Positions 1-63,489 of a stretch of 64,000 nucleotides of DNA are shown piece by piece. Location: NCBI GenBank assembly GCA_963924555.1, contig OZ004585.1, positions 8,386,556-8,450,555 of the forward strand, in the 5' to 3' direction. The notes below the pieces were generated by a model. The model made no database searches. It saw only the letters and a list, made by a program, of their open reading frames with translations, and was not told where the DNA came from. This DNA is from Crambe crambe (Eukaryota; Porifera; Demospongiae; Poecilosclerida; Crambeidae). The position numbers were made by a program, and so were the translations under genes. Position 1 is the first letter of the stretch. Each line of letters begins with the position of its first letter.

Positions 1-3000
1 ACAGCAGTTTCCTCACAGAAATAATCTACACGCAAGCAGTATATTCTTATTGTGATAATTCTCAAATACGACCCACTTCATCTGACTCTGCATAGTAGTC
101 CAGGTCTAAGTTAGTCCTCTCTTTCTTCAGGTAGTCCAGCAAACTCCCATTTCCCATATAAGGCATCACAATGGATGGCCCTGAGACTGAATCAGCACAC
201 ACTCCCACAAGAGTCATGACATTCGGATGGGACAAGTCTTGCATCTTGCAAACCTCAGATAGCACACTCTGAACATCTGACTGCTGTAACATTCCTATGA
301 CATTATAAAAGAGAGGAAGTTTAGTCTTATGACCAAGCTATGTAGCTATGACCCACTCAAACAAAAATTATAATGTACCTCTGAGAATTTTAACTGCAAC
401 TGTTTCTGTATATTGATCATTCAGCCCACGAGACTTCACCAAATGTGCTTTATAGACAACTCCAAATTGACCTGTAGAAAATATTTACTGTAAATCACTG
501 AAATTTCACACACATCTTTGCTCACCTTGGCCCAGGGAGATATCTAATATTCTGATGCTACTGCTTGGGATAATGAGATTGAATGATAGTTGACTGATAA
601 ATTCTGATAGATCAGCTATAAGCATAATTATTTAAAAGTTAATCATACAGAGTTCACTGCACTATGTGGTTTACTCACACTTTAGTACTAAACTTTTGTC
701 AGTAGTTCTGCTCTTCAGCTCTGTCATCTCATAGGTCATTCTCCTTCCCTTGACATTGATGTATCGATAAGAGACGGCAATGATCAGGATTAAACAACAC
801 AGGAAGACCACCACCACTGGGATAACCACTGCTGGGACAATCGCATGTGTAGGGATAGGGTTATTAATGGCAGGTGAGTCATAGAGGAGTCGATCAGGCA
901 GTGGAATGGTCAGATTTTGACCTATCATCACCTAAAACAAAAAAGAGAAGATGTTAAGCAAAAGTTCCTGATTGAGTATGTTAGAGATTCACCACTATGT
1001 ATATAAAATGCATACTGAACTGGTCACTTACAACCACCATGGCTCTGTCCACCCCTTCCCCAGGGTCTGCTGGAGCCACACACAAAATCTACATGTGAAC
1101 AAAATAAGAAATATTTATACGTACTTCCATTAGTCTATATATTAATGTCACAGTTCAAAGGTCAATTAGTAATGTACATGCATGTCACTCGTGGCAACAT
1201 GCAAATTCAAAGCAAGGAAGGAAGGCGGAGTGAGCCGATACACCCAAGCACTCGAGTTTCTAGCTATGGACTTGACGTCACAGTTCAAAGGTCAATTGGT
1301 AACGTGCATGCATGTCACTTGTGGCAACATGCAAATTCAAAGCAAGGAAGGAAGGCGGAGTGAGCTGATACACCCAAGCACTCGAGTTTCTAGCTATGGA
1401 CTTGACTCAACAATGAATCTTGATGCTCTAAGAGTCCAACATTACAAAAGAAAAAGAGAAATATGGTTCAAAAGTCAATAGCTACTGTAGCCAGGCTGGC
1501 GAAGATAGAAACAAGCAAGGGGCTGGATACTGCAGTAAGCCTAGGCCAGTGAAGAATGCAGGGCTGCAGCAATCCAAGATGCCAAAAAACTGCATAGAAA
1601 AAGCCTCACTGAAGGAAGAAGAGGCTTATAGCTAGAAGTAACCAGCCCCAATAGCATGCTATTTCAAATGCAAAAAAAGATTGCCACAGATTTTTTGTGG
1701 GTGCAGGCTAGTAATAATTATTGTTAACAATGATAGTACATACTTGAAAATCTGTCACAGTTCTTATTTTGCAGACTTGTCCTGCAATGGACACTCTTAT
1801 ATCACTTGCATCTACCAGTCCTAAATTTTGTAGCTGGAAGAAAGAAAGATCGAAAGATTGAAAGTTTCACACAAAGCATTGTTAATGGAGTTTGATTGCT
1901 CACATCTATCTGCACTATAGTTGAATTTGAGCCTCTGGGAACAGATCTAGTGACCAGTATGAGTCCAGAGGGGTCAGGCATGACTGATAATTGAAGGCCA
2001 GGAACAGTGGGATCAGGAGGAGGGGCATTGTCCAGACGCAGCAAGTACATGACAGTATTTTGAACAGGCAATGGAGGAGTAATGCAGGAGAGATGAGTGT
2101 TATTCACATTAGAGCAATTAACCTGCAGCAAACATGAATACTAATAATTCCAGTATTCTAGAGGAGGGGAGGAAGGAGGGGGGGGGGGGGGGGGGGGGGG
2201 GGGGAGGAAGAAAGGAGAGGAGGAGAGGGAGAGTGCAGGAAAGGAGAGGAGGAGGGAGAATAGAACTGGGGAGGGGAGAAGAGAAACAGGGGAGGAGAGA
2301 AGAGGAGGGGGAGTATACTCACTATTGTCCCACCAAAAGTGAGTTGAGGATTCTGAGACACATCAAGATCATTTCCAATGAAATAAAGTGTTAGTCCTCC
2401 ACTGAAAAGAATAGTTAATGGATAATTAGCCAGTAGAAATGATTATAAACTCACGATAGTATTAAGTTCTTAGGCTGAATGGAGATGAAGTTAGGGTTAT
2501 TCCTGTACTCAAATACCACTCCAGCCTCACTGATGTTCTGAGCATCAATTCGCACTACCAGTGGAGTAGGAGAGGAGGAAGGGGAGGAGGTGTTAGCGCT
2601 GGTACAAGTTATCTGAGTGGAAGTCCTCACTCTGCAATTGTGCAGTAATAATTGCAAGCCACAAACTCAACGACTCACATGTCTCTGCATTCCAATCCTC
2701 TTGATTCATCTGGTGTAATTCTCGTGGAAGTACCAATATCCAATCCAGTGCCATTGATAGTCAACCTAGTGCCACCTGCCATGGGGCCAAATGCTGGCTC
2801 CACACTGCTCACTGTAGGCAACACCACCATGAAACCATCATGTCTGCCTGTGCTTCTTCCTGCATCTCTCACGAGATTAACCTCCACTCTTTGTGCTCCT
2901 TTTCCCATTCCTGATCCAGTCCGACAGAGCACCTGTACTCCAGAGATGTAGTCCATGTTGAATGGAGTGCAGATCACTCCTCCAACTGTGATGCTGCCGG

Positions 3001-6000
3001 CTTCCATGAAATCACTAAATACCACACCTAGGTCTCTTCCTCTGATGGTAAGGATGGTCCCTCCATCAGGAGGGCCAGAGGAAGGGGAGAACCCTGTAAT
3101 CACAGGAGCTGGACACTGTTCTCCAATAATGATGAAAGGATTAGAAGGCACAAACTGTCTGCACTCCTCTGAAATGGAGCAAATTGCGTGATCACACCAT
3201 CCACACTCAAAACCTGGAGTGTCTCGACTTGCTATACATGAGGAGCAGTCAGTGGCCAAGACTCGGCAATCATAGAGAGTCACTTTAAACAAGATAATTA
3301 GTAATCAAGCACGGGAAGTAGTTAGTTTATTGCTTACAGCTTGCAGCATTGATGGTATCAATTCTGTGATTAACTGCAGGACCATTCCAGATAATTCCAA
3401 TATCAGTGACTTCCATACCACTGCTAGAAGTTAAGGGCAGCTACATTGAGAGATTATTTAATGGCATTAAAAGTGAAGAAATTCTTTAGCATACAACACT
3501 GTTTCCAACTTGACAAGTGAGAGACGTTTCATTGTTCCTTGTAGCATTGAATATTGTGTTTCTGATCAAACACATGTAGCTGTAACCAGGCACCTGAATA
3601 TGTATGAATACAAATGGATCATTCCTAATAACAATGGAAGATAATTTTCTCCTCACAATATTGGGCAAGTTTTTGGTGGTGAGATGGAGTTTGGGTTGGG
3701 CACGAACATGTTGAGTGTAGTTGGTAGCACCATTCTCAAGATCAAGCAGTGGACACACCTCTTGGAATGATGCTGCTGTGTCCAGCTACATTAAAGATGA
3801 TGTAATGATCGAGGAAGGTCACATGACCTACTGTGGTTTGAGTACCTGTAGGAAGTTAGAGGTGTTGGTGCAGCCTTGAGCTGTTCCTCTGCAAAGTTTG
3901 TTGATCACACACCATCCACAGGCATTCCTAATCTCAACACACTCATTACAGCTGTTTCAAATATATACTCATTGAATTCATCACTGCATTTGGATTAAAT
4001 AATGCACTATTCTTACATGTTCATACCTATTAGTAGCATTGCAATTATAAATAGTCAAGGCATTGTCTGTCCTGTCAAATGGCACATTGACCAGTGAACT
4101 CATAAAATTGAAGTGCATCACTAAAGGAAGAAAAACGAAGGAAAATTAAGTGCTAGACCCCTGGGATGCTAAATTGCTGACCATGTATATAATTATGTCC
4201 ACTTTTCAGAGGTTGAACGTCACATGGATCACAACTTATCATCGTGCATGCTATAGCTAACATAATGGGCTCACATATGGCCATAAACTGTATTGCATCT
4301 ACTGATCTCAACCTTCTCTAAGAAACTTTGGGGTGCAGTTGGAACATGAGCACTAATAGTGTCAAAAAAAGTAAGGATGGCTATATGCAGTTCAATAAAA
4401 GCCCCTTACCCATCCAATATTACCAAACTATGAGCTAACTATTCAGAAGCATAGTCAGGATATTAGAAAAAAAGGGGGCAACAAGTGAAAATTTTAACCG
4501 GAAGCCACACCCACCAATTAAATTGGCAAGGAAGTTACAGCTACTTGAAAGATCGCTCGAATGTTACTGCAGTAAGGTACTAGTTGGCCAGGTTAAGACA
4601 TCAGTTTCATACCATAAGGAGTGAATATGCAAATTATAATTTACAAGTCAACACATGAAAATGAACTCTGAAAAAAAAGGGGGGCAAATATGCCTCCCCT
4701 GCCCCTCCTTGGCTACGCCACTGCTATTCCTACTTCACTCCCATTACAGGCCAAGATGAGATATAAAGGGAGTGAAGTAGGAATACCGTATACGAGTTAA
4801 TTTTGGCAGGAGTTTTATTTGGCGTTTGTACCGTGGAAGGCTTTTGGCGGATATCATTATTGGCGGCGGTGTGTTGTCGTGCACTCGCGCGCGCATTGCA
4901 TTCAGGAGCTAGCACAAGCCAGGAGCAAGTCATGGAGTAAGTCATGGAGTTTCACTTGACTAGTTGTGTTCGAGGCTATTACGTATACAAAGTTATCTGA
5001 AATCCAAACGTGGGGGAGTTATTCAGCTGATCCATGGTCCGAGGGAAGAAGGAAACTCGGGGGACCCATACACTGTTGCAGTAATATCAGATGGCAACGT
5101 TGGCAACATTCCGAGATTGATGTGACTGTCAGCTGCCTGCTCACTTCCTCCTTCTTCAAGAACTTTCAAAGAGACATCACGATCGCAAAATAGCTGGAAA
5201 CGGAGCTAGCTAGCTATTATGTAGTCTCGCGCTGTTACACAATATACACTCAAGCCCCACCCCCAGCCCGTAGCCTGGCGCCTAGCTATAGATATTGGCG
5301 GTCATTATTATTGGCGGTTCCAAGACAGACCGCCAAACCGTCAAATTTAATACACCGCCAAATTTAACTCGTATACGGTAGTTAGCTCATAGTTTGGTAA
5401 GGTGATGGGTAAGGGGTTACTTGACTGAAGTTCACTCTCTTGTTGTTGAACTTTTTTGAATCGCACACAGCCATCCCTACTTTTCTTATTAAATATTAAT
5501 TTTTCCCCTTTACCTTTCATCACCTTTAGCATATGGTGTGACAACCTCCTCTGCATGAACATTTTTTGTGCATTCTTAGAATCACTATGTTAACCAAGAA
5601 ATGATGGGGCCATAGAAATGTAATTGGTCACATTTCTTCAGGCCCCACATGTTATAGTTTTATATACCTGCTTGGACTCCACCATATATAAAGGTTTGGT
5701 TGGTGATGTCACAGGTGTACTGTGTGAGTGGGTCAACCTCCATTGCAGGGACAGTGATGTTGAACCTTCCTCTGCTGTCTTCAAAGTGACACATGTAGGT
5801 CTCATTGTTGAGGTTAGCTGGCAACCCTGGACCACCGACTGTCACATTCAACTGGACCAAAGAAAAGTATTATTAGCTATTGATCGATAATCAAAACTCA
5901 CAATTTGCTGGTTGTCAAGCACAAACTGATCAGGTGAGATGGTGTTCATTATGCACTGGGTGTTAGTATCGGCTGAAAGGCCACTGCTAGGGATCCACCT

Positions 6001-7606
6001 GGTGCTGCTGGTGGAGTCTCCATCCCTGCACTGTGATTGTCGGGAACACTTGTTCTCCACCACACACCACCCACACAGAGGGTTGTCCTCCATGAGGCAA
6101 CTAGAACAGTTTGAATTGGAGAAGCATACCTCAGCAGGGATTCTAAACACCTACAACATTGAGAGATCAAATCAATTTTAATGTAATAATTACATACTTC
6201 AGAGGTAGAAGCTGCCAGGACATAGTCCAGTCCTCTCTGCCACTGCAATGCATCCACTTGAAAGGAAATTGTTTGCACATCAAATACATTATTAATGTTG
6301 AGAGTTACACTGGCATTGGAGATGATGAACTAAGACAGAAAGTTAACGCTTTTAGTAGCTATATGAACCATTTAGAAATAACTCACCTTTCCAGTGAAAT
6401 TGCCTACAATTAGAGCAGAACTATAGGCAACATAAGCCACCACCATCAAAGAGAAGCCATCCACTTTAACAGGCACTGAAGCTGTTATTGTATATGGAGG
6501 ACCAATCATTCCAATATTAACTATAACTGATGTATCGACTTGTGGAATAGGATCTGAAATACCACTATTGTCAAGAGCTATGTCAAAAAGTGTCCCAAAA
6601 TTGCAGAATCCCATGAGCTGTGAATTTAAGATAATAAAATAATTATAACATATTTTAATAATCTTCCTTTATGTACCTGAAAGTTCATACACTCACGCCT
6701 GCCCCTACTCCATGTTGGTTGAACACTTCCACTTCCAGCTCGGCATTCATTATACCTCCTCTCCATAGTGCTGTCTATGTCAGCCACTTTAATAGCACAC
6801 ACCTGATTACTTGATCTGCTGTTGCCACGGCACCTCGATAATACGATACTTGCTCCTGAAGAACCACCAAAGTCTTCCACCAGTGACACACCACATATTC
6901 TATCATCATCATTACTAGATATTAGACTCCCACAGGCAAAGTTTTCCTCGTAGAGCGCATTGAAAAAACACAATCCAGTGCAATTGGTCACATGACACAC
7001 CCTCATGACTCTGAGTGCACCAGGAATGGAGCGATCAAGTAAAACAAAATACGAATACTCTCCACTTGTGAATCCATAAAAAACTAATCGGTTAAATCCA
7101 GTTTCAGTTGTTTGATATTCTTGAGAACGCAAGTAGTTATTCCTTTCAGAGCCATATTGTCTCAATAAGATTTCACCAAGATTGTTACTACTTGAGGTAG
7201 GGGGAGTCACGTTACCCACATAATAAGTGTCTCCTGCAGTGAAGACAGCCACACGATCTCTGACACCGAGTTCAATGCCTGTTGTAGCTATGACACTATT
7301 CAAGTCACTGGTGTTGTAGACACTACAGGAGATGTGAGTGCACACCACCAACCACTCCCCATCAGAATTGAGGGAGATACCAACAGCAAGACTGGATAGG
7401 CTGACAGTTTGTTGAAGGACTAGGTCTCTGTTTAGCCTGTAGAGTCGGTTGCCTGCAGCAACAAAAGTTCTTCCCTGACTGTCCACTTGCAAGCCTGGTG
7501 TTTCTGACAGAGGTCCCCCAGGTAGGGAAAACTGCAGAGTAATGCAGTGAGATCGTAGCACTAGAACTTCAATCACCAAAAGAGGCAAAAAGTACAATTT
7601 CTCCAT
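1..7606 (-). CDS. Plexin-ectodomain receptor tyrosine kinase, gene 1 (3' truncated by window edge)
   Basis: Type I membrane receptor. Exons in coding order: 6677-7606, 6387-6617, 6198-6329, 5902-6150, 5668-5851, 4027-4120, 3846-3951, 3495-3785, 3338-3440, 2679-3282, 2455-2631, 2323-2401, 1904-2122, 1744-1833, 1032-1088, 679-931, 526-615, 379-471, 77-294 and 1-25 (partial). All joins keep frame, giving about 1,408 residues to the edge. Order: signal peptide, Sema (about 20-430), PSI 1 (Cys-rich exon 4), PSI 2 (exon 7, CGWCV), PSI 3 plus two IPT/TIG units (exon 10), further IPT-like exons, one transmembrane segment (exon 16), then the kinase N-lobe. The N-lobe has a GQGQFGVVY glycine loop, the VAVK lysine and the alphaC glutamate. 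The catalytic lobe lies beyond position 1. Three PSI units are a plexin feature; Met has one. Ligand unknown, a semaphorin is possible. Introns 5 and 14 are enlarged by inserted repeats. Confidence 0.9.
1089..1743. repeat. Inserted sequence with 130-bp direct duplication in gene 1 intron 14
   Basis: The equivalent intron is 53 bp in gene 2 and 62 bp in the plexin, so about 600 bp were gained here. The insertion contains a 130-bp unit present twice (about 1146-1275 and 1276-1405). It includes agcaaggaaggaaggcggag and ctcgagtttctagctatgga. Confidence 0.8.
2160..2320. repeat. G-rich purine tract in gene 1 intron 12, with counterparts in the paralogues
   Basis: A poly-G run of about 26 bases is followed by gagga-type purine repeats. 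The same intron is purine-rich on this strand in gene 2 (12255-12390) and pyrimidine-rich on the plus strand in the plexin (20715-20830), but the lengths differ. The tract is therefore ancestral to the three copies and unstable. Confidence 0.85.
4397..5425. repeat. Outer inverted repeat around the MITE in gene 1
   Basis: The segment at about 4400-4441 (CCCCTTACCCAT and ACCAAACTATGAGCTAACT) recurs inverted at about 5380-5420. A further 17-bp hairpin, attcctacttcactccc and its complement, sits at about 4727-4783. This suggests nested insertions. Confidence 0.7.
4784..5380. mobile_element. MITE-like DNA element with TIRs and TA target duplication, gene 1 intron 5
   Basis: The left end CCGTATACGAGTTAATTTTGGC (4786 onward) is matched in inverted orientation by the right end at about 5355-5378, and TA flanks both ends. 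That is a terminal inverted repeat of about 22 bp with a TA duplication, as in Tc1/mariner-type non-autonomous elements. It is absent from intron 5 of gene 2 and of the plexin. No transposase frame is present. Confidence 0.75.
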
Positions 7607-8745
7607 TTTTGTGGGTGGCTACAGCCAATTTCAATTCAGCTCACTTTGAATTTTCCGTGGGAAAATGATGCGCATGCGTAGTCTGACAGCACCGCCACGG
7701 GATTGGAAACGGATCACGTGCTCTCGTTAGCAACTACCAACAACCGAGGCGCGTTGACAGCTGAATGACATAGCACTTTTGTCAAAGTTGTTGTTCTGAC
7801 AAGATCCATGAGGTAAGACTTATGCCAATGATACTATAATACACTAGGGCATAGATTTACTGTATGAAATAAATTTTAGCTCAGATTTTCAAGTTTATTC
7901 CTACAAATACTACTGTAGTGGTTAATGGGACTGTAATCCCTCTCACGCTTGATGGAATCAATTGCTGTTGCCCATTTTCTGATCAAAAGGCATGTAAACC
8001 TTAGCTACATGGAATAGTAATGTTGGTTTTTGTATTAGCTGACATATATTGTCTCTAGCATTTGCAAGTGGTGTTAAAACTGTAATCCCTCTCCCAAGAA
8101 ATAGATTAACAATATTGAAACTGTATTAGTTATTTCAGGGAAAGGATAGAACAGTAAATGGAATTGGTGCATTCGTTTTCTATACAATAGTCATCCTATG
8201 GAGATGGCAAGCTTACTATATTTCCCCCCTAATATCCATAGGGTCCACAGGACAGCTGACTGAGCCGAATTCTTGAGGTGGATGGTGTCAAAACCCAACA
8301 GCCAAAAGCTGGAAGTATTGCAATAATGTTGATGAGGGAGAACTGAGCAGAAACTGGCGGATAACTTTGGGGCAAAATTATCTAGCTATAATAATAATGA
8401 ATTTATGTCTAATTTTAATACCAAAAGTCATTCTGGCCTTTCTTTCAAATCAATCACATAAAATTAATGTATAATGAGCAATGATAGGTACTCATAGTTA
8501 TAATTACAAGGAAAAAAGTTATGAATAATTAATAACTTCCTTCCGCAGACTCTCCAACTTCAACTCTCTGACTCTTCACTTCTTCAATACCTTCCCCTTA
8601 GCTTACTTGTACTATTCTGTGAGCTGTAGGGGCAGAATATCACTTTAACTGCCTTGAAAGGAGTGAATATTGATCTCTTTTCACAACGATTAATATAATT
8701 AATGCATGCGCGTGCGCATCTGTCAACGCGCCACGGTTGTGCAGT
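7607..8745. promoter_or_regulatory. 5' flank of gene 1, no gene seen
   Basis: Within 120 bp upstream of the gene 1 ATG (minus strand) there is a CCAAT word near 7625, a palindromic TGCGCATGCGT (NRF1-like) at about 7669-7679 and a CACGTG E-box near 7717. The rest is AT-rich and holds no supported exon. A second NRF1-like cluster (atgcgcgtgcgcat) lies near 8704. Confidence 0.4.
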
Positions 8746-9051
8746 TCATTGGGCGTTTCCAATCCCGTAAAACCTCTTATATCTATGCACGTACACACAC
8801 CACCAACCACTCCCCACCAGAACTGAGGGAGATACCAACAGCAGGACTGGATAGGTTGACAGTTTGTTGAGGAATAGGTCTCTGTTTAGCCTATAGAGTT
8901 GGTTGCCTGCAGCAACAAAGGTCCTTTCCTGACTGTCCACTTGCAAGCCTGTGTTTCTGACAAAGGTCCCCCAGGCAGGGGAAACCGCAGAGTAAAGCAG
9001 TGAGACGGTAGCACTAGAACTAACTACAACAATCATCAATAATTTCTCCAT
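8746..9051 (-). pseudogene. Orphan first exon of the Sema receptor family (broken)
   Basis: The minus strand from 9051 encodes an MEKLL-type signal peptide followed by the family's [21 protein letters not shown] stretch. Compared with gene 2, single-base deletions shift the frame: one G is missing in the GLQVDS region and one C is missing after the RLNRD codons. Homology fades near 8790, and no further Sema exons follow. It lies between the 3' end of gene 2 and the 5' end of gene 1, as expected for a remnant of an unequal duplication. Confidence 0.75.
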
Positions 9052-9563
9052 TTTCTCTTAGCTAAGTAGCTAGCTATTAGTGAATAATAACATGCGCGCG
9101 CTAATGTAATAATGTCTCTCTCTACAGCTGTGGAAATTCGAAAAAGGATCCTCTCCTCTACGTCTCCCTCTGGCTCATAAGTCTGTGCCACAAGACTCAT
9201 ACAGATTTACACTTTATTTGTTTGTATTTATTGCTAGTTGTAAGATCCATCAACACCCTCAGGCCTGTATCCAAGGCCTTTTGAGGCCTCAGAATCTATA
9301 CCCAAACTTGAAAAAATTCAGTTTCGTTATTAATCAACTTTGAACATGAAAACTAGCTAGCTACTCTAAAGATAATTTATTAATAGATTCTCATAAAATT
9401 AGCTTTATGAAACAAATCACCAATGTTTCAACCAGATAGCTAGCTACTCTAGCCTTCATCAGGGTGATACAAAAAAAAAATTATTTAAAAACTTATTAGT
9501 TATTGTAGTTATAGCTACAATTAATGTAGCTGCTGTCCTTAATTATCATGCCATTTAAAAAAT
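9052..9563. other. Gap between orphan Sema exon and 3' end of gene 2
   Basis: No coding sequence is supported here. It contains a short motif at about 9422-9470 (TTTCAACCAGATAGC followed by CTTCATCAGGGTG). It resembles a motif seen in dispersed elements of marine invertebrates, recalled from memory and not searched. The 3' UTR of gene 2 presumably occupies the right part. Confidence 0.35.
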
Positions 9564-11314
9564 TCACAAACTATCAAGTTTAGCTATAGCCAGAGGATTC
9601 ACAATCACAGGTACTTCATAGCTCTGAGGTTCAGGTGCTTTATTAGCTCCATATGCAGCATTCTCCTCCATCACCACATCATTTTCATCTGCAAGTAAAA
9701 TACAGTTTCATTATGTAGCTGCATGTATTGTAGCTGCATGTATTGTAGCTGCATGTATTGTAGCTGCATGTATTGTAGCTGCATGTATTGTAGCTGCATG
9801 TATTGTAGCTGCATGTATTGTAGCTGCATGTATTGTAGCTATAGGAATCTTGCTGACAAGCAGGTACACTTACCTTGTGGTTGTTCTAAAACCATCTTCA
9901 GTTCCATGTAGCCAGCTATTGACTGCAGCCTTGCATCAAAAAGGGATGATAACTCTTCAAAAGTTGGACGCTCTTCGGGAGATTTCCAACATTTACGCAT
10001 GATGGCATATCTATATGAAAAATAAAATACCTCAGTGAAACCTCCAAATAATGGACCCAGGACTTTTGTCCTTTGTGTAGAAAGGTTGTCCTCTTTTAGA
10101 GGTTATTTTGTAGAGTGTAAGTGTTGTCCTTAGTTGAAAAGATTCCTTTTATTATCATCAGTTCCACTGCATAGCTATTACATTTCAGTGGCACTGGCAG
10201 CAGAGTTGGGGTATTCAAGTCTCATCCCTTCTCTTAGCAATCGTGGAAGGTCAATAGGGTCAACGGCTGGGTATGGAGACCTTCCAATGCTGAACACTTC
10301 CCAGCAAGTAACTCCAAAGGACCACTATAAAAATTCAATATCTTAGTTATGGTAGCTATGATGAAATAACTTGTTCAACATACCACATCTGTTTTCTCTG
10401 AGAAAAAGCCATCCTCTAGGCTCTCTGGAGCCATCCACTTGAATGGCAGTCTCACTGCATCATCCTTATTCTGTCTGAAGTAGCCAGTATTGTAGACATC
10501 CTCAGACAGTCCAAAATCAGCCACTTTTAAAATACCTTTAGAATCAAGCCTATCATGCAAGGTTATAGCTAATCAACTGTCAGTCCTGCAAGGTATTATA
10601 ATGTATGAAGTAGCAAAATTGTAATCTTACATGCAATTTCTTGCAGCCAGATCTCTGTGAATAATCTTCTGTAAGGCAAGATATGACATTCCAAGAGAAA
10701 TCTGATGACACATTCTCAACAACAATTTCCTCACAGAAATAATCTACACGCAAGCAGTATATTCTCATTGTGATAATATTCTCAAATACGACCCACTTCA
10801 TCTGTCTCTGCATCATAGTCCAGGTCCAAGTTAGTCCTCTCTTTCTTCAGGTAGTCCAGCAAACTCCCATTTCCCATATAAGGCATCACGATGGATGGCC
10901 CTGAGGCTGAATCAGCACACACTCCCACAAGAGTCATGACGTTCGGATGGGACAAGTCTTGCATCTTACAAACCTCAGATAGCACACTCTGAACATCTGA
11001 CTGCTGTAACATTCCTATGACAATATAAAAGAGAGAAAGTTTAGTCTCATGACCAAGCTACATGTGACCCAGTACCTTTGAGAATTTTAACTGCAACTGT
11101 TTCTGTATATTGATCATTCAGCCCACGAGACTTCACCAAATGCGCTTTATAGACAACTCCAAATTGACCTGTAGAAAGTATTTACTGTAAGATCACTGAA
11201 ATTTTCACACAGATCTTTGCTCACCTTGGCCCAGGGAGATATCTAATATTCTGATGTTACTGCTTGGGATAATGAGGTTGGATGGTAGTTGACTGATAAA
11301 TTCTGATAGATCAG
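9564..11314 (-). other. Kinase-encoding exon block of gene 2
   Basis: Exons 17-24 encode the juxtamembrane end, the complete protein tyrosine kinase domain and the tail. Nothing homologous is visible behind the plexin transmembrane exon. The activation segment reads DVYNTGYF with two tyrosines near the Met/insulin-receptor positions. The matching gene 1 block (1-615) is nearly identical over the shared part, including introns. The intron at 9689-9873 holds a 15-bp minisatellite. Confidence 0.9.
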
Positions 11315-14300
11315 CTATAAGCATATTTAAAAGTTAATTATACAGAGCTCACTGCACTATGTGGTTTACTCACACTTTAGTACTAAACTTTTGTCAGTAG
11401 TTCTGCTCTTCAGCTCTGTTATCTCATAGGTCATTTTCCTTTCCTTATCTTTGATGTATCGATAAGAGATGGCAATGATCAGGATTAAACAACACACGAA
11501 GATCACCACCACTGGGATAACCACTGCTGGGACAATCACATGTGTAGGGATAGGGTTATTAGTGGCAGGCGAGTCATAGAGAAGTCGATCAGGCAGTGGA
11601 ATGGTCAGATTTTGACCTATCATCACCTAAAAAAAGAGAGCGAAAGTTCCTGATTGAGTATGTTCGGGACAGGAGAGATTCACCAGATCTATCATTATGT
11701 ATATAAAATGCATACTGAATTGGTCACTTACAACCACCATGGCACTGTCCATCCCTTCCCCAGGGTCTGCTGGAGCCACACACAAAATCTACATGTGAAC
11801 AAAATAAGATAAGTACTTCCATTAATAATATTAGTACATACTTGAGTATCTGTCACAGTTCTGATTTTGCAGTCTTGTCCTGCAATGGACACTCTTATCT
11901 CACTCACATCTACCGGTCCTAAATTTTGTCCCTGGGAGAAAGAAAGATTGAAACATTGAAACCTTCACACAAACGCATTGTTAATGGAGTTTGATTGCTC
12001 ACATCTATCTGCACTATAGTTGAATTTGAACCTCTGGGAACAGATCTAGTGACCAGTACGAGTCTAGAGGGGTCAGGCATGACTGATAATTGAAAGCTCA
12101 GAACAGTGGGATCTGGAGGAGGGGCATTATCCAGACGCAGTAAGTATATGACAGTATCTTGAACAGGCAATGGAGGAGTAGTGCAGGAGAGATGAGTGTT
12201 ATTCACATTAGAGCAATTAACCTACAGCAAACATGAGTACTAGTAATACCAGTATTCTAGAGGAGGAAAGGAAGGAAGGAGAGGAGGGAAGGAAGGAGAG
12301 GGAGGGTGCAGGAAAGGAGAAAGATGGGGAGGAGGAGGGAGAGGAGAGGGGAGGGGAGGGGAGAAGGGAAGGAGGGGAGGAGTAAGGGGGAGTATACTCA
12401 CTGTTCTCCCACCAACAGTGAATTGAGGATTTTGAGACACATCAAGATCATTTCCAAGGAAATAAAGTGTTAGTCCTCCACTGAAAAGTAGAAGTTATTG
12501 GTTAATGGATAATTAGCAGTAGAAATGATTATAAAAACTCACGATAGTATTGAGTTCTTAGGCTGAATGGAGGTGAAGTTAGGGTTATTCCTGAACTCAA
12601 ATACCACTCCAGTCTCATTGATGGTCTGGGCATCAATTCGCACCACCAGTGAAGTAGGAGAGGAAGAAGGGGAGGAGGCGTTAGTGCTGGTACAAGTTAT
12701 CTGAGTGAAAGTCCTCATTCTGCAGTTGTGCAGTGATAAACACTAACAAACTGAAGCCACAAACTCAAAGACTCACATGTCTCTGCATTCAAGTCCCCTT
12801 GCTTCATCTAGTGTGATTCTTGTGGAGGTTCCAATGTCCAATCCAGTGCCATTGATAGTCAACCTACTGCCACCTGCTATGGGGCCAAATGCTGGCTCCA
12901 CACTGCTCACTGTAGGCAACACCACCATGAAACCATCACGTCTGCCTGTGAGTATTCCTGCATCTCTCACAAGATTAACCTCCACTCTTTGTGATTCTTC
13001 TCCCATTCCTGATCCAGTCCGACAAAGGACCTGCATTCCAGAGATGTAGTCCATGTTGAGTGGAGTGCAGATCACTCCTCCAACGGTTATATTACTACCA
13101 GCTTCCAAGAAATCATCAAATACCACGCCTAAGTCTCCTCCTTCAATGGTAAGGATGGTCCCTCCATTAGGAGGGCCAGAAGAGGGGGAGAACCCTGTAA
13201 TCACAGGAGCTGGACACTGTTCTCCAATAACAATGAAAAGATTAGAAGCCATGAACTGTCTGCACTCCTCTGAAATGGAGCAAATCGAGCCGGGGTGATC
13301 ACACCATCCACACTCAAAACCTGGAGTGCCACGACTTGCTATACATGAGGAGCAGTCAGTGGCCAAGACTCGGCAATCATAGAGAGTCACTTTAAACAAG
13401 ATAATTAGTAGTCAAGCACTGGGAAGTAGACTATTGTTAGTTTATTGCTTACAGCTTGCAGCATTGATGGTATCAATTCTGTGATTAACTGCAGGACCAT
13501 TCCAGATGATTCCAATATCAGTGACTTCACTGCCAGAAGTTAAGGAGAGCTACATATGAGAGAATTATTTAATGGCATTAAAAGTGAAGAAATTCTTTAG
13601 CATACAGCAACAGTTCCAACTTGACAAGTGAGTGATGTTTCATTGTCCCTTGTAGCATTGAACATTGTGTTTCCAATCAAACACATGTAGCTGTAACCAG
13701 GCACCTGAATATGTATGGATACAAATGGATCATTCCTAATAACAATGGAAGATAATTTTCCTCACAATATCAGGCAAGTTCTTTGTGGTGAGATGGAGTT
13801 TGGGTTGGGCACGAACATGTTGAGTGTAGTTGGTGGTACCATTCTCAAGATCAAGCAGTGGACATACCTCTTGGAATGATGCTGTGTCCAACTATGTTAA
13901 AGATGGTGTAATGATTGAGGAAGGTCACATGACCTATTGTGGTTTGAGTACCTGTAGGAAGTTAGAGGTGTTGGTGCAGTCTTGAGCTGTTCCTCTGCAC
14001 AGTTTGTTGATCACACACCATCCACAGGCATTCCTAGTCTCAACACACTCACTACAGCTGTTTCAAATACATACTCATTGAATTCATCACTGTATTTGGG
14101 TACAATAATGCTATCATACCTATTAGTAGCATTGCATCTATAAATAGTCAAGGCATTGTCTGTCCTGTCAAACGGCACATTGACCAGTGAACTCACAAAA
14201 CTGAAGTGCATCACTAAAGCAAGAAAAACATAGAAGGAAAATTAAGTGCTAGAGCCATGGGATGCATAGCTACGTATGCTAACTTGTGCAGAAAAAATTG

Positions 14301-16640
14301 CTGACCATGCATGTATAATTGAACGTCACACAGCTCATCATCATGTATGCTATAGGGGCTCACATATGGCCATAAACTGTACTGCATCCAACTTATGAGT
14401 TATCACTGGCATGGTTAAAAGGATCAATGGTGTACTCTAGGTAACTAACTCACTGACCACAACCTTCTGCAATAAACCTTGGAATTCAGTTAAAACATGA
14501 GCACCATAATCCATATTTATGGCTAGCATTCCTGGCTAGCAGTCTGGCTATTGCTGATGCTATAATAAAATTATGATGTCACTTTTCTGTGACGGCCTCC
14601 TCTGCATGATCATACATTTTTTGTGCATTCTTAGAATCACTACGTTAACCAAGGAATGATGGGGCCCTACAGGCCCCACATGTTACTAGTTTTATATACC
14701 TGCTTGAACTCCATCATACATAAAGGTTTGGTTGGTGATGTCACAGGTGTACTGTGTGAGTGGGACGACCTCCATTGCAGGGACAGTGATGTTGAACCTT
14801 CCTCTGCTGTCTTCAAAGTGACACATGTAGGTCTCATTGTCGAGGTTAGCTGGCAACCCTGGACCACCGACTGTCATGTTCAACTAAACAATTAAGATAA
14901 CATCAATAGATGTATATATTTTTAAATCTCACAATTTGCTGGTTGTCAAGCACAAACTGATCAGGTGAGATGGTGTTCATTATGCACTGGGTGCTAGCAT
15001 TGGCTGAAGGGCCACTGCTAGAGATCCACCTGTTGCTGCTGGTGGAGTTTTCATCCCTGCACTGTGACTGTCGGGAACACTTGTTCTCCACCACACACCA
15101 CCCACACAGAGGGTTGTCCTCAGTAACACAGCTAGAACAGTTTGAATTAGAGGAACACACCTCAGCAGGGATTCTTAACACCTACAACATTATACGTACA
15201 ACTTTGAAAGATCACATATTCTCCTGAATTTAAAATACCTGAGAGGCAGTAGCTGCTAAGACATAGTCCAGTCCTTTCTGCCACTGCAACGTATCCACTT
15301 GAGAGGAAATTGCTTGCTCATCAAATACATTATTAATGTTGAGAGTTACACTGACATTGGAGATGATGAACTACGTAAGAGGGAAAACTTAAGCTTTTGA
15401 TATACGAATCTCTTTGAAATAACTGACCTTTCCAATGAAATTGCCTACAATAGGAGGGTTAGAATTAGGACTATTAGCAGCATAAGCCACCACAATCAAA
15501 GAGAAGCCATCCACTTTAAGAGGCACTGAAGCTGTTATCGTGTATGGAGGACCAATCATTCCAATATTAACTATAACTGAAGTATCGACTAGTGGAATAG
15601 CATCTGAAGCAGCAATATTGTCAAGTGCTATGTCAAAAAATCTGCTAAAACTGCAAAATCCTACGGGCTGCAAATTTAAGATTATATTAATAAGCAACAA
15701 CTAATTATAATCTTTATACCTGAAAGTTCCTATCACATACACGCCTGTCCCTACTCCATGCTGGTTGAATACTTCCACTGCCAGCTCGGCATTCATTGTA
15801 TCTCCTCTCCATAATGCTATCTATGTCAGCCACTTTAATAGCACACACCTGATTACCTGATCTGCTGTTGCCACGGCACCTCAATGATACGATACTTGCT
15901 CCTGAAGAACCACCAAAGTCTTCCACCAGTGACACACCACATATTCTATCATCATCATTACTAGATACTATATTTCCACAAACAAAGTTTTCCTCGTAGA
16001 GTGCATTGAATGAACATGATCCAGTGCAATTGGTCACATGACACACCCTCATGACTCTGAGGGCACTAGGAATGGAGCGATCAAGTACAACAAAATACGA
16101 ATACTCTCCACTCGAAAATCCACCGAAAACTAATCGGTTAAATCCAGTTTCAGTTGTTTGATATTCTCGAGAGCGCAAGTAGTCATTCCTTTCAGAGCCA
16201 TATTGTCTCAGTAAGATTTCACCAAGATTGTTACTACTTGAGGGAGGGGGAGTCACATTACCCACATAATAAGTGTCTCCTGCAGTGAAGACAGCCACAC
16301 GATCTCTGACACCAAGTTCAATGCTTGTATTTATGACACTATTCAAGTCACTGGTGTTGTAGACTGTACAGGAGATGCGAGTGCACACCACCAACCACTC
16401 CCCACCAGAACTGAGGGAGATATCAACAGCAGGACTGGATAGGTTGACAGTTTGTTGAAGGACTAGTTCTCTGTTCAGCCTGTAGAGTTGGTTGCCTGCA
16501 GCAACAAAGGTCCTTCCCTGACTGTCCACTTGCAAGCCTGGTGTTTCTGACAGAGGTCCCCCAGGCAGGGAAAACTGCAGAGTAATGCAGTGAGATCGTA
16601 GCACTAGAACTTCAATCACCAAAAAGAACAATTTCTCCAT
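9564..16640 (-). CDS. Plexin-ectodomain receptor tyrosine kinase, gene 2 (complete locus, frame broken in exon 8)
   Basis: Tandem paralogue of gene 1. Exons: 15720-16640, 15428-15667, 15239-15370, 14933-15181, 14700-14883, 14120-14213, 13952-14057, 13606-13891, 13453-13549, 12777-13389, 12543-12719, 12402-12480, 12003-12221, 11842-11931, 11732-11788, 11374-11626, 11225-11314, 11076-11168, 10797-11014, 10631-10743, 10384-10549, 10182-10324, 9874-10010, 9564-9688 (TGA stop). Layout is signal peptide, Sema, three PSI, IPT units, transmembrane segment, tyrosine kinase (about 1290-1580 of roughly 1,627 codons) and a short tail with Tyr motifs (AAYGAN, SYEVP). Kinase hallmarks are all present: [31 protein letters not shown], and an EERPTF arginine. 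Exon 8 is 286 nt against 288 and 291 in the other copies. A 2-bp deletion near 13760 leads to TAG at 13736-13738, so the full transcript would stop after about 693 residues, before the membrane segment. The locus is either a pseudogene, a secreted ectodomain, or rescued by skipping exon 8. Confidence 0.88.
9716..9841. repeat. 15-bp minisatellite in a gene 2 kinase intron
   Basis: About eight perfect copies of gtagctgcatgtatt lie in the last intron of gene 2, between exons 9874-10010 and 9564-9688. The open reading frame across it is an artefact of a repeat length divisible by three. Confidence 0.95.
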
Positions 16641-16838
16641 TTCTATGGACCCGGCTGCGCGCGCGCCTAGCCTAGCTATTACTGCACATGCGCAGTACAG
16701 CTACCCTCTGGCCTGCATACTAAGTCATGTTCAGTTCCATTCCGAACCGTTTGGCATGGAATATAATTGCAAGGTCACCACGCCCAATAAACTAAGAGCA
16801 AGTGCAGTGAATGCAAGTTCTAGGCAGACTACTTGGCT
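16641..16838. promoter_or_regulatory. Shared head-to-head promoter of receptor kinase gene 2 and plexin
   Basis: Only 198 bp separate the two ATGs, so both genes must start transcription from this interval or overlap each other. It contains a CpG-rich gcgcgcgcc stretch near 16660, a TGCGCA (NRF1-like half-site) near 16687, and CCAAT-like and GC-box-like words near 16790. No TATA box is clear. Confidence 0.6.
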
Positions 16839-39083
<22,245 letters not shown>

Positions 39084-39531
39084 ACTTTCAAGAAAAAAAA
39101 GGAAAAAAAAACATGATTAGAAAAAAAAATGCACCAACCATGTTATTGTATGGACAACTCCTGAACATAGTAATAAATTATTTTTGCAGTGATAAGTGTA
39201 TGATTAATTCCAGATTATGTAATTTCTTGTTATAGATGCTATTCTTAGAAACCACTTGATAATAGGCAGTTCATTATTCTTATATTATTGATTTTTAAAC
39301 TGCTAACATCTAATTTTTGTTTTGCTGTCTTATGATAAAATGTGTGGTAAAGGGTCGTCGTGAAAATAACCGCTAATGCATGTTTAATTTATTTAATAAG
39401 GCCGCGCCGAGGGGAGTGTCCCAAGTAGTCGCTTGGCTTCTATTTTTGCAGTTGTTGATCATTCATCGTTGCTAAGCTAACTTCTGAGTTAGAAAGTAAG
39501 AAGCAGATCAGAAGGAAGAGGGGGAGAGAGA
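39084..39531. other. Intergenic gap, plexin 3' end to SH3-FAM107 gene
   Basis: The plexin 3' UTR has AATAAA at 39172-39177. A GC-richer stretch (gccgcgccgagggg, near 39402) precedes the next gene and probably belongs to its promoter or 5' UTR. No other gene is seen. Confidence 0.5.
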
Positions 39532-40073
39532 ATGGAGATTTATATCGCCAAGTACGACTACGAGAAAGAAAGAGAAGACATTCTGAGCTTCCACAAAGGA
39601 GATAAGTTCCAAATAGCCTCCAAGGCGGATGCCAAGTGGTGGGCTGCCTATGCTATCGAGAGCAAGGACTACGGATACGTACCAAGCAAATATCTGGAGG
39701 TAAGATTTGAAGTAACGTTGTAGGCCTAGCTAAAGCAGTGTGTATTGCAAATGAAGTACTTGATAATTTTACTGATTATCAAAATGATAGAGTGCTGTTG
39801 CTTACTTCCCTAATTTTTGGGGGAGATTATGACTCAGACATTCATAACTCTGGCTGCTAATACGGTAACTGCAGTGTAGTGTCTGTGGTTCAGGTTACAG
39901 CTGATACACAAATAAGTTAATTAGTGCAAACCCACTTCTAGTGTTATGGAGAGAAGCTCTATGCTGTCTTGATCAAGACTCCCAGCCTATGCCTGCAAAA
40001 AAAAAAAAAAAAAAAGCCTTGGGGCATGGGATTTCAAAGGAAGTGTGTCAGTAATGCATCACTGTATTGTGCC

Positions 40074-48278: not shown

Positions 48279-50866
48279 TCATACAGTGTCGTCATTGTAA
48301 GGGAACAGAACAAATGAGTCTCCATGTATATTTCCACTAGTATCCATCCCACCAAATATAAAGAGAGCAGATACTAATTCACATGTTTCTTCAGAGTCAG
48401 AGTCCTGTAGAAATTTGCCTGCGGTATTATTAATTTCATCACAATCAACTGTCGATGGCTTTGAAGTAGGGAAGTCTTTTCCTGATGGGTCAATAATTGT
48501 AATGGCTTGAAATGATTTCTTATCGGATCCACCATCTCCAAAATGACCTTCCTCCTTCTGCCGACAATCAGTTGCATTCGTAGAGGTGTCTTCACCACTT
48601 GAAACAAAGTTTGAAGGCGTCTCGACCTTCGTTTTCAGTCCATCATCAACAGTAGTTGCTAGATTGTGCAGGTTCTTTGTATGATTGCAAGGAATTGGGA
48701 CCCTGATACTGCACATGGCGTGATCGAGTCGTGCCGGGGGAGCTGCTCCTTTGATCATCACTCTTTCCCACACCAAAGTATCTGAAGTTGATGAATTCTA
48801 TATCATGATATGTACATTAATATCACCTATGCATGCACAGGAGAGAAAGAATCGAATGGAGACATCTTAAATACAATAATATCAACAGAATAAATGCTGT
48901 GGGATAGTAAAATTGAAGTATGTGTCCTGTTTTTGTGCATGATGAAATTTTACCCTACAAATACAATATGCATTACAGTTACCCTAAGGACCCTTAGAGA
49001 TAAATATAGTACCTGTGTGTAAGCAATAGAGAGAGTCTTGGGCTCCAGGTGTCGTCCCCTCTGGACTAAGACCTCCAAAGATGTAGAGAGAAGTACGGAT
49101 GACAGCCACACCATGGGCTGCAAGAGGAGGGGGCGGAGTTCCTGTCACCTTGGGGCAGGACCACCTCATGTCATCTGTACAAGTAATAAGAATACAGTAT
49201 GGAGGTGGTCTCTTCAGGGAATGGGTACTGAGATGATCTCATTACAGGGTGATCTGGTGGCAGAGTGGCAGTGGTCTCTTTAGGGAGATCATACCAGCTT
49301 CACTAAAGGTAGACTTACATTACTCACTAAACAACAACAACAGTAACGACCTGGAATGGATACTGAGATGATCTCATTACAGGGTGATCTGGTGGCAGTG
49401 GTCTCTTTAGGGAGATCATACCAGCTTCACTAAAAGGTAGACTAACATTACTCACAACAACAACAACAACAGTAGCTAATAACAACGAACTAACAACAAA
49501 AGTGTAGGCCTGGGAACAAGACTAGCGGCATATTTGACTTAGAGAGTGAGGTAATTTTGTTAACAGCTTGATGGTTCAGTCTGTCCATTGCAGATTGGTT
49601 GTCAGGAAGGTTTGTCCTATGGCTTACAACTGCATGGATTCTATAGGATATGAAGGTTTCTTAGGTCCTTGTAAGCCACTACCTTATAGACAATCATCCT
49701 GAAATTCACAGTATAGACAGACTTTCTATCAAAGTGGAGATAACAACATACCAAGATTCAGGCAGTGTAAGTCTTCCAGTATCTCTTCTCCTGCCATCCC
49801 TCCGTGGATGAAGAACTTGGAACCCACGACAGCTGCCACGTGACCTTGCCTGGGAGACGGGGGAGAGCCTAGTGTTACTGGGGCATGCCACTCACCTGAT
49901 TCTGCATTGTAGAAAGGGCGAAAAGAAAGCATTTGGATAGAGATATAATGATAGCTAAGAAGATAAGATTTGGTCTTTGTCTCAGTGATGATAGTTAACC
50001 CCATAGATGTTAATTTGGCAGTAAAAACCAGACAGTAAAAATCTGACAAGTGGGGAAATATCCGGACACACAGAGTACCTAATGATAGTCCAATCCCACA
50101 AACTGAATAAAATTCTATACTTGCTATTTAATATGAATATTACCATTTCAAAGGCGAACTCACTTGGATTGAGTATATACACCTTTTGATCAGCAACAGG
50201 GTCAGTCCCAGTGTCACCTCCGCTGTAGACTACAATGCTCTGTGACTCTGGGACCATACTGGAACTGGAATGATACGTACGAGGAATGGGAATACAACCA
50301 GAGGTTATGATTTCTTGCCACTTGTTGTCATCTATACATTTGGGGAAACTGTACAATGAAGTAGTGAAAGTGACATGATGTGAATCACTCACTAAAGTTG
50401 TACTTCCATGAATCACTAACTGGACCATTGGGTTTAGCACCGGCAAAAATGAAGAGATTACTGGCTCCTTTCTCCAATGAAGGAACAATACAGGAAGCAT
50501 GTTCATAACGAGCAGGGAGCTCCTCACTGGGTAATGAAGACCACTCTATGCAATCTGTATAATTAATTACATGAGTGGGTTGGTGTGCTTTAATTGGAAA
50601 ATAAGCTACTGACCTTTCTTGAATACAAGCTGATGGAGGTCTGAATATGGGCCTTCAGGAGTGGCCCCTGCTGATATACAAACTGTCCCGATCTCCTCTA
50701 GATCTCCCAACTGATAAAAGTTTGCGCATGCTCCCACCCTAGGGCATGGACCGTTACTGCCTGAGGAGATACCGCTCGAGGCTGAGCCTTCGGGTGCTAT
50801 AGCATACCAGGTGTCCTTTGCAGGCGTGTGACCAGCGTCAAGAATGGGATGAACATCAAATGACAT
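48279..50866 (-). CDS. RABEPK: Rab9 effector protein with Kelch motifs
   Basis: Predicted 463-residue Kelch propeller. Exons in coding order: 50614-50866, 50393-50554, 50164-50331, 49752-49895, 49013-49174, 48279-48781 (TGA), phase 1 at every junction. The start resembles RABEPK/p40 (DTWYAIAPEG, then CPRVGACANF). Kelch repeats follow: ISAGATPEGPYSDLH, RYEHASC with FAGAKPNGPVSD, YHSSSS with YSGGD, PSPRQGHVAAVVGSKFFIHGG, LAAHGVAVIRTSLYIFGGLS, ARLDHAMC and a final LFIFGGMDTSGNIHGDSF. A polar, acidic insertion of about 90 residues in the last exon sits between the last two Kelch blades. Human RABEPK has a shorter insertion at the same place. In the family it binds Rab9-GTP and promotes late endosome to trans-Golgi transport. 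Confidence 0.92.

Positions 50867-55456: not shown

Positions 55457-63489
<8,033 letters not shown>

Follow-up and report, generated by a model that had tools for sequence, protein, structure and literature searches.

A demosponge array of plexins and plexin-kinases with shared ectodomains and predicted joins inside the transmembrane exon

A 64,000-nucleotide stretch of the Crambe crambe genome (here called the window; C8:8386556-8450555 of assembly G000, which holds 143 Mb in 119 contigs) is probably part of a demosponge array of plexins and plexin-kinases, in which recombination within the transmembrane exon would have joined plexin ectodomains to different cytoplasmic modules. The window contains two receptor tyrosine kinases and one plexin with one and the same ectodomain, as had been predicted originally: in genes A and B it is followed by an intact tyrosine kinase, and in gene C by a complete plexin RasGAP. 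Exon models for the three genes were made with a splice-aware script, comparison between paralogues and correction by hand. All internal boundaries are GT-AG and there are no internal stops, in the case of A after correction of exon 7. Genes B and C lie head to head on opposite strands, and A comes after B on the minus strand. The window holds exons 1-20 of A and the first 25 bases of exon 21; the remainder of that exon and exons 22-25 come from the adjoining sequence to the left (L010), the gene reaching 1,072 bases beyond the window edge. The kinase of A is therefore only partly in the window, and the original prediction could not have covered the whole of it. The main features, in window coordinates, are as follows.

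7606 to -1072, minus strand: gene A, plexin-kinase, 25 exons, 1603 aa; in-window part 1..7606
790..797, minus strand: swap junction of A, in transmembrane codons of exon 17 (679-931), from the breakpoint scan
8749..9057, minus strand: broken fragment of a first Sema exon, between A and B, by sequence similarity
9564..16640, minus strand: gene B, plexin-kinase, 25 exons, 1606 aa, by gene model and Pfam
9564..11314, minus strand: B exons 18-25, tyrosine kinase and tail (a stretch of 22 protein letters present), by model and Pfam
11374..11626, minus strand: B exon 17, with the ectodomain end, transmembrane helix and kinase-type juxtamembrane; junction near 11485-11492
11732..16640, minus strand: B ectodomain exons 1-16 (Sema region, 3 PSI, IPT/TIG), by gene model, Pfam and profile
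16641..16838, no strand: B/C spacer of 198 bp between divergent start codons, a candidate shared promoter from coordinates only
16839..39083, plus strand: gene C, plexin, 27 exons, 1847 aa, by gene model and Pfam
21444..21705, plus strand: C exon 17, transmembrane helix and plexin-type juxtamembrane (MADECKR), by alignment
21706..31933, plus strand: repeat-rich C intron of 10.2 kb between the transmembrane exon and the first RasGAP exon, by gene model
31934..39083, plus strand: C exons 18-27, plexin RasGAP with Rho-GTPase-binding domain, by gene model and Pfam

The 16 ectodomain exons are common to A, B and C, with identical order and phase. Eleven of them (exons 3-7, 9 and 12-16) are equal in length in all three genes, and exons 1, 2, 8, 10, 11 and 17 show small differences. 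The exon lengths are 921, 240, 132, 249, 184, 94, 106, 126, 99, 97, 613, 177, 79, 219, 90, 57 and 253 nt for B exons 1-17 and 927, 240, 132, 249, 184, 94, 106, 126, 99, 103, 613, 177, 79, 219, 90, 57 and 262 nt for the same exons of C; the lengths singled out earlier as shared (132, 249, 184, 94, 106, 177, 79, 219, 90, 57) were indeed found in A, B and C, in like phases. Beyond these lie exons of 90, 93, 218, 113, 166, 143, 137 and 125 nt in B (18-25) and of 343, 142, 141, 154, 132, 182, 167, 213, 136 and 177 nt in C (18-27). Nucleotide identity of the coding blocks is far beyond chance (A-B 88-97%, A-C 88-95%, and B-C 90-99% as far as the transmembrane helix), and dS across the ectodomain blocks is 0.01-0.21. 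This low divergence, together with a junction located in exon 17, bears out the claim that the exchange between plexin and receptor kinase was recent.

The Pfam scan covered B and C, A being judged by its 84-86% like ectodomain. It reported three PSI and four TIG stretches in each gene, PK_Tyr_Ser-Thr in B (263.5 bits), and Plexin_cytopl (517.6 bits) and Plexin_RBD (109.2 bits) in C. At E 0.01 the Pfam Sema model found nothing in either B or C. The Sema region was called from a profile of ten sponge relatives, one of which has a reported Sema, compared with PDB chains; plexin ectodomains were matched, with 6fkm ("Plexin A, isoform A") covering profile positions 26-619 and 5l5g (Plexin-A2) positions 167-1155 at 452 bits. 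The proposed Sema, three-PSI, IPT ectodomain is thus supported by Pfam for its PSI and TIG parts and by the profile for Sema. Gene C has the PSI-IPT, RasGAP and RBD of a plexin, its Sema by profile only; A and B combine a complete plexin ectodomain of three PSI with a tyrosine kinase, which is the domain content of Met-LP, and the three PSI of B differ from the truncated, one-PSI ectodomain of Met RTKs. Diversifying selection on Sema was considered and rejected, dN/dS giving no support (omega 1.34 for B-C, interval 0.62-3.80; 0.36-0.57 for the other five pairs). Over the whole genome, the Pfam Sema model matched three times (C65:1279, C65:11619 and C13:6486082), each in a long open frame and never inside the window; these are possible semaphorin ligands.

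The point at which the outputs diverge lies in exon 17. Similarity between A/B and C stops at 21578 in C, 794 in A and 11489 in B. We aligned the transmembrane exons of A, B and C with those of plexin-kinase G (contig C18, L048), plexin-kinase F (C8:8.76 Mb, L047) and the array plexin L049. Left of the junction G, A and B match C, and right of it they match F. For example, over the 60 bases left of the junction G scores 0.80 to C and 0.40 to F, and over the 60 bases right of it 0.40 to C and 0.82 to F. The corresponding values for A and B are 0.92-0.93 to C versus 0.48-0.52 on the left, and 0.52-0.53 to C versus 0.73-0.83 to F on the right. F shows the same breakpoint pattern with another parent, matching L049 left of the junction and G right of it. 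The breakpoint is resolved to 7 bases in A and B and to 10 in G; for F the figure is 17 or 3, according to which second parent is used. Both junctions, that of the A/B/G type and that of F, fall in transmembrane codons of the same exon. The original prediction had ectodomain exons followed by kinase or RasGAP exons; the continuation holds, but the clean exon join does not, the switch being inside exon 17. Clean exon shuffling at the 16/17 or 17/18 intron is ruled out for A, B and F, where similarity changes within that exon. Since the matched kinase stretches contain introns, the events took place at the DNA level and not via RNA copies.

The second join involves another plexin class. In the RasGAP tree, which took in 3 of the 20 loci L011-L030, C groups with Halichondria panicea P0151 (HpPLX_A1; support 97), and three array loci (C8:8.05-8.22 Mb) group with H. 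panicea P0172 (HpPLX_A3; support 100). The F ectodomain has a summed tblastn score of 626 bits to P0172, against 348 or less for the other ectodomains compared, and is 83-94% identical in nucleotides to L049 in seven blocks of 134-1772 bases and 80-82% in three shorter ones. Its kinase is 88% like that of A at the nucleotide level. In H. panicea the same kind of ectodomain precedes a RasGAP, which makes the direction of the swap clearer for F than for A, B and C. New here is the placement of one juxtamembrane-kinase module behind two plexin classes, with both RasGAP partners surviving and the joins in transmembrane codons.

Further members lie left of A on the minus strand, in the order E, D, K5, K4, K3, K2, K1, K0. 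The D and K entries consist of residues anchored to B by tblastn rather than full gene models. E, D and K5 are given below, together with the stalk tract of B that recurs in K0-K4.

-2,640 to -1,440 (L010), minus strand: E, broken, with part of a Sema exon running in frame into an exon of the kinase activation loop
-8,837 to -3,500 (L010), minus strand: D, an A1-type ectodomain, 55-66% identical to B by region
-23,000 to -19,000 (L009), minus strand: K5, a plexin-type ectodomain with a pseudokinase
12572..14231, minus strand: B stalk tract, exons 6-12 with introns, 86-92% identical in nucleotides in K0-K4

E is the remnant of a third plexin-kinase copy. The transmembrane frame of D ends in a short tail, as read from the frame. 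In K5 the VAVK lysine is replaced by Arg, HRD by HRN and DFG by DYG; K1-K4 keep HRD and DFG in the parts recovered, and K2-K4 are recent tandem copies (87-99% in nucleotides in blocks of more than 400 bases). No kinase or RasGAP match was found beyond K0 in a search to -160 kb. The notion that K0 is a plexin, prompted by RasGAP exons further left, was rejected, since its transmembrane exon is of the K type and another Sema-like frame, recognized by eye, starts beyond it at about -150.4 kb; it is listed as tail-less. The Amphimedon Plexin-A1 to -A4 of PMC6374515 also have short intracellular parts, as D and K0 appear to have, but the accessible portion of that paper gives no kinase-bearing sister genes in Amphimedon. 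A degraded K5-like copy lies at about -111 kb.

In contrast to the stalk tract, the Sema regions of K0-K4 are 44-47% identical to B in amino acids over 291-304 residues, and 38-40% in longer tblastn stretches. Likewise, the Sema exon of G has a dS of 0.43-0.47 against A, B and C, and its stalk exon 11 a dS of only 0.15-0.24. These contrasts are of the kind that gene conversion of the stalk would leave behind. An array with additional predicted plexin-kinases, a pseudokinase version and tail-less versions, and with like stalks beneath diverged Sema regions, is also new. Part of the family may be dying, because E and the fragment at 8749-9057 are broken, K5 is a pseudokinase, D and K0 are tail-less, and the first exon of G (L048:582-1499) has no in-frame ATG at the aligned start of A, B and C.

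Comparable proteins occur in other demosponges. The nearest public proteins are demosponge ones, best in H. panicea (RasGAP 66%, kinase 60%), where four records called "plexin-A2-like" (P0003, P0005, P0007, P0010; about 1600 aa) combine PSI and TIG with a tyrosine kinase 56-60% identical to that of B. They resemble A and B in domains and differ in being named as plexins. Among the best six, the H. panicea plexin-kinase ectodomains are 36-38% identical to B. Predicted plexin-kinases of Ephydatia muelleri are also in public protein sets. K1-K4 and these two sponges indicate that plexin-kinases are older than the A/B/C event. Within each species the two kinds of receptor are close: the A1-type plexin ectodomain of H. 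panicea is 59-70% identical to its own plexin-kinases and 37% to C, and in E. muelleri identity between the two kinds is 66-76% over long stretches.

We compared 32 listed proteins with A, B and C, and built Sema and stalk trees from 24 of those 35 together with K0-K4 and D (the trees omit HpPK_b, d and f, EmPK_159, three Ephydatia plexins, two PSI-RTKs, two TIG-RTKs, K5, F and G; Geodia was dropped from the Sema tree). Both trees group by species, with plexins among plexin-kinases, and give support of 100 to this genome, to Ephydatia, and to the H. panicea plexin-kinases with P0151. The A and B ectodomains group with their own species' plexins, and the same grouping by species in two other demosponges is a further new element. 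Monophyly of all plexin-kinase ectodomains was rejected (stalk dlnL 1943, p 1e-42; Sema dlnL 1468, p 8e-66); the stalk tests used LG+G4 with a fast search, and their constraints were all plexin-kinases, those of Ephydatia and those of this genome. For an Ephydatia-only clade the Sema data led to rejection (p 8e-35) and the stalk data did not (p 0.58). Ephydatia has two types of Sema, both of which occur with a kinase and with a RasGAP, and these form clades (100 and 99) that are gone in the stalk tree; this result rests on public gene models, which are possibly chimeric, and one of them (Em0014g149a, 2251 aa) looks extended. Plexin-kinase monophyly was not rejected for this genome (stalk p 0.099, Sema p 0.176) or for H. 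panicea (Sema p 0.21), and repeated exchange is therefore less certain in these two than in Ephydatia.

Another potential reason for the grouping by species is that a single plexin-kinase fusion arose in a demosponge ancestor and conversion within each species has since homogenized the ectodomains of plexins and plexin-kinases, with hardly any new fusion. We regard this as a serious possibility, though we lean against it. Plexin-kinases do occur in three demosponges with kinases in one clade (98), the stalk tract looks conversion-like, and the gene placement is what an old shared cluster would give: the seven plexin-kinases used here and both plexins of H. panicea are apparently on one contig, as are two EMCRGX plexin-kinases and three EMCRGX plexins of E. 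muelleri. However, the joins differ. Those of Ephydatia lie at the end of the plexin juxtamembrane, which is kept to MAEECKR, and those of Crambe and H. panicea within the transmembrane segment. Moreover, to explain F an A3-type ectodomain must have been joined independently to the same kinase, and the kinases of the H. panicea plexin-kinases form a clade with two TIG-RTKs (100) within a single clade of all 13 H. panicea kinases of this family (100), several of which carry other ectodomains. As these kinases with other ectodomains are close kin of the plexin-kinase kinases, ectodomain exchange would extend beyond plexins. The two TIG-RTKs of H. panicea, P0004 and P0006, have kinase and juxtamembrane in common with its plexin-kinases.

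The kinase module is also dispersed in the Crambe genome. At five loci it is 75-91% identical in amino acids to the B kinase, among the pieces listed, behind at least three ectodomain types. For example, the same kinase stands behind a third kind of IPT-transmembrane segment at L050 (C6:2.706 Mb; C6:2706200-2707400) and behind a diverged A1-type upstream segment at L051 (C10:4.66 Mb), and L052 (C8:6.757 Mb) is a kinase piece without such a segment upstream. It could be argued that each dispersed copy is an old plexin-kinase in its own right, and that gene conversion between chromosomes recently homogenized their kinase modules, with no recent re-joining to different ectodomains; the variety of upstream segments would agree with this, as would the left edge of the shared module, whose position in F and G is the same almost to the codon. 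We consider it rather unlikely, since F is young on both sides of its junction, its ectodomain being close to that of the array plexin in the longer blocks, as described above.

The kinases of A and B have the Gly loop, VAVK, HRD, DFG and APE, and from sequence only are predicted to be active; dN/dS between the two is 0.29 (bootstrap 0.17-0.51), indicating constraint. For their placement, a tree of 56 kinases was built from 48 of the 120 public proteins listed and eight Crambe kinases, among them partial ones of F and K5 but not E or K1x. The proteins were picked by similarity to B, few other RTK families are sampled, and support values were recounted on unrooted trees. The eight kinases form one clade (100), are joined by those of Ephydatia and H. 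panicea at 98 and by Amphimedon RTKs at 100, and belong with all 36 sponge RTKs in the tree at 83. Within this demosponge clade the other ectodomains include SRCR, ADAM, Ig and sushi. Met is in a separate clade (82; 100 with Branchiostoma) that excludes A and B, and direct membership of Met is rejected. This agrees with the claim that the kinase is not Met proper. The stronger claim, that it is foreign to Met, was upheld only in part: it lies outside the Met clade, but sponge RTKs, Met, a Branchiostoma RTK and one Met-LP (Patiria) group at 100 against Ret, FGFR2, Eph and Src-type kinases, which are few families, and with Met-LP left outside, the node uniting sponge RTKs and Met is supported at 59. 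The kinase, though outside Met, may therefore share a deep ancestor with it. Apart from this family, C16:4.97-6.05 Mb contains a large array of long open frames that match tyrosine kinases (at least 26 matches).

The earlier statement that no plexin-kinase had been described did not hold. As set out in the accessible part of PMC6374515, Met-LP RTKs of Lophotrochozoa and Echinodermata have a complete plexin ectodomain and a kinase, two independent origins are proposed for them, one in each group, and in A. planci the Met-LP gene adjoins a plexin-B gene; predicted plexin-kinases of H. panicea and E. muelleri were moreover already in public sets. The same portion of the paper treats the Met ectodomain as a truncated plexin (Sema, one PSI and four IPT), lists six plexins for Amphimedon, of which four have short tails, and mentions neither Met nor Met-LP for that sponge. 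Three other papers (PMC8242945, PMC8662651 and PMC9798719) mention sponge plexins or RTKs, without plexin-kinases in the portions available. A search of titles and abstract openings in the open PMC literature, with subscription papers and preprints outside its scope, gave no sponge plexin-kinase among the matches listed. A and B are like Met-LP in joining a complete plexin ectodomain to an intracellular tyrosine kinase, but they come from a demosponge, their kinase is in the sponge RTK clade, and they have a near-identical plexin partner, a resolved junction and several output variants in one array. With Met/Ron they share the Sema-PSI-IPT and kinase order and the deep kinase node, and they differ in having three PSI instead of one and a kinase outside the Met clade. 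Compared with class A-like plexins, C has PSI, TIG, RBD and RasGAP, and A and B have the same ectodomain without the RasGAP.

That ectodomain and kinase descended together from an early animal plexin-kinase, also the parent of Met and Met-LP, is improbable in our view. The domain order is that of Met-LP (PMC6374515, accessible part), the grouping at 100 is compatible with such descent, and phmmer scores Met and FGFR2 nearly equally (202.8 and 206.8 bits). Because of the recount of support on unrooted trees, we gave this explanation more weight and lowered that of the main reading slightly. Nevertheless, the kinases sit among sponge RTKs with the other ectodomains named above, Met stands apart, the sampling favours relatives of B, and the ectodomains group with each species' own plexins. 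An artefact of assembly or gene models, or a set of functionless pseudogenes, is very improbable: the array has tandem repeats and broken copies and is read from genomic sequence, but the models are contiguous and without stops, the kinase is constrained, a like gene is on another contig (L048), and two other sponges have like predicted proteins.

Recombination inside the transmembrane exon, the reading that we favour, would have yielded an ectodomain with RasGAP in C, or with the juxtamembrane-kinase module of a sponge RTK family in A and B. Ligand-bound plexins cluster and switch off Rap-type GTPases, and receptor kinases are switched on by clustering. Through the plexin ectodomain, A/B and C could bind the same or overlapping ligands; a common ligand is plausible, and the clustering driven by it would activate different outputs, a kinase for A/B and a Rap/Ras-GAP for C. 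The 198-bp spacer perhaps drives co-expression of B and C, which might balance the two outputs in one cell. Array-wide gene conversion would keep the stalk tracts alike as the Sema regions diverge, and tail-less and pseudokinase members may act as decoys or partners. More broadly, and only tentatively, demosponge plexins could be an output-swapping system, in which an ectodomain is repeatedly re-joined via the transmembrane exon to a RasGAP, a kinase, a pseudokinase or no tail, giving matched receptors for one ligand, with the stalk homogenized and Sema free to diverge.

When a receptor changes its output but keeps its outer half, the event usually has to be pieced together from the distant past, as with the origin of Met. 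In this window both products of the putative swap stand head to head, 90-99% alike in the exons they share; the joins of A and B are placed to within 7 bases, and a second, parallel join lies elsewhere in the same genome. Whether twin receptors can answer one ligand with a kinase output and a GAP output becomes testable, in an animal believed to lack neurons. Caution is needed with sponge proteins named "plexin-A2-like", which include receptor kinases.

The right part of the window holds other frames. An SH3-domain frame lies at 39493-39720, 410 bases past the stop of C (Pfam 46 bits), weak Kelch-type matches below the Pfam cut-off are found at 48282-50545 on the minus strand, and frames at 56600-60100 resemble, by eye, what we take to be an SLC26-type anion transporter.
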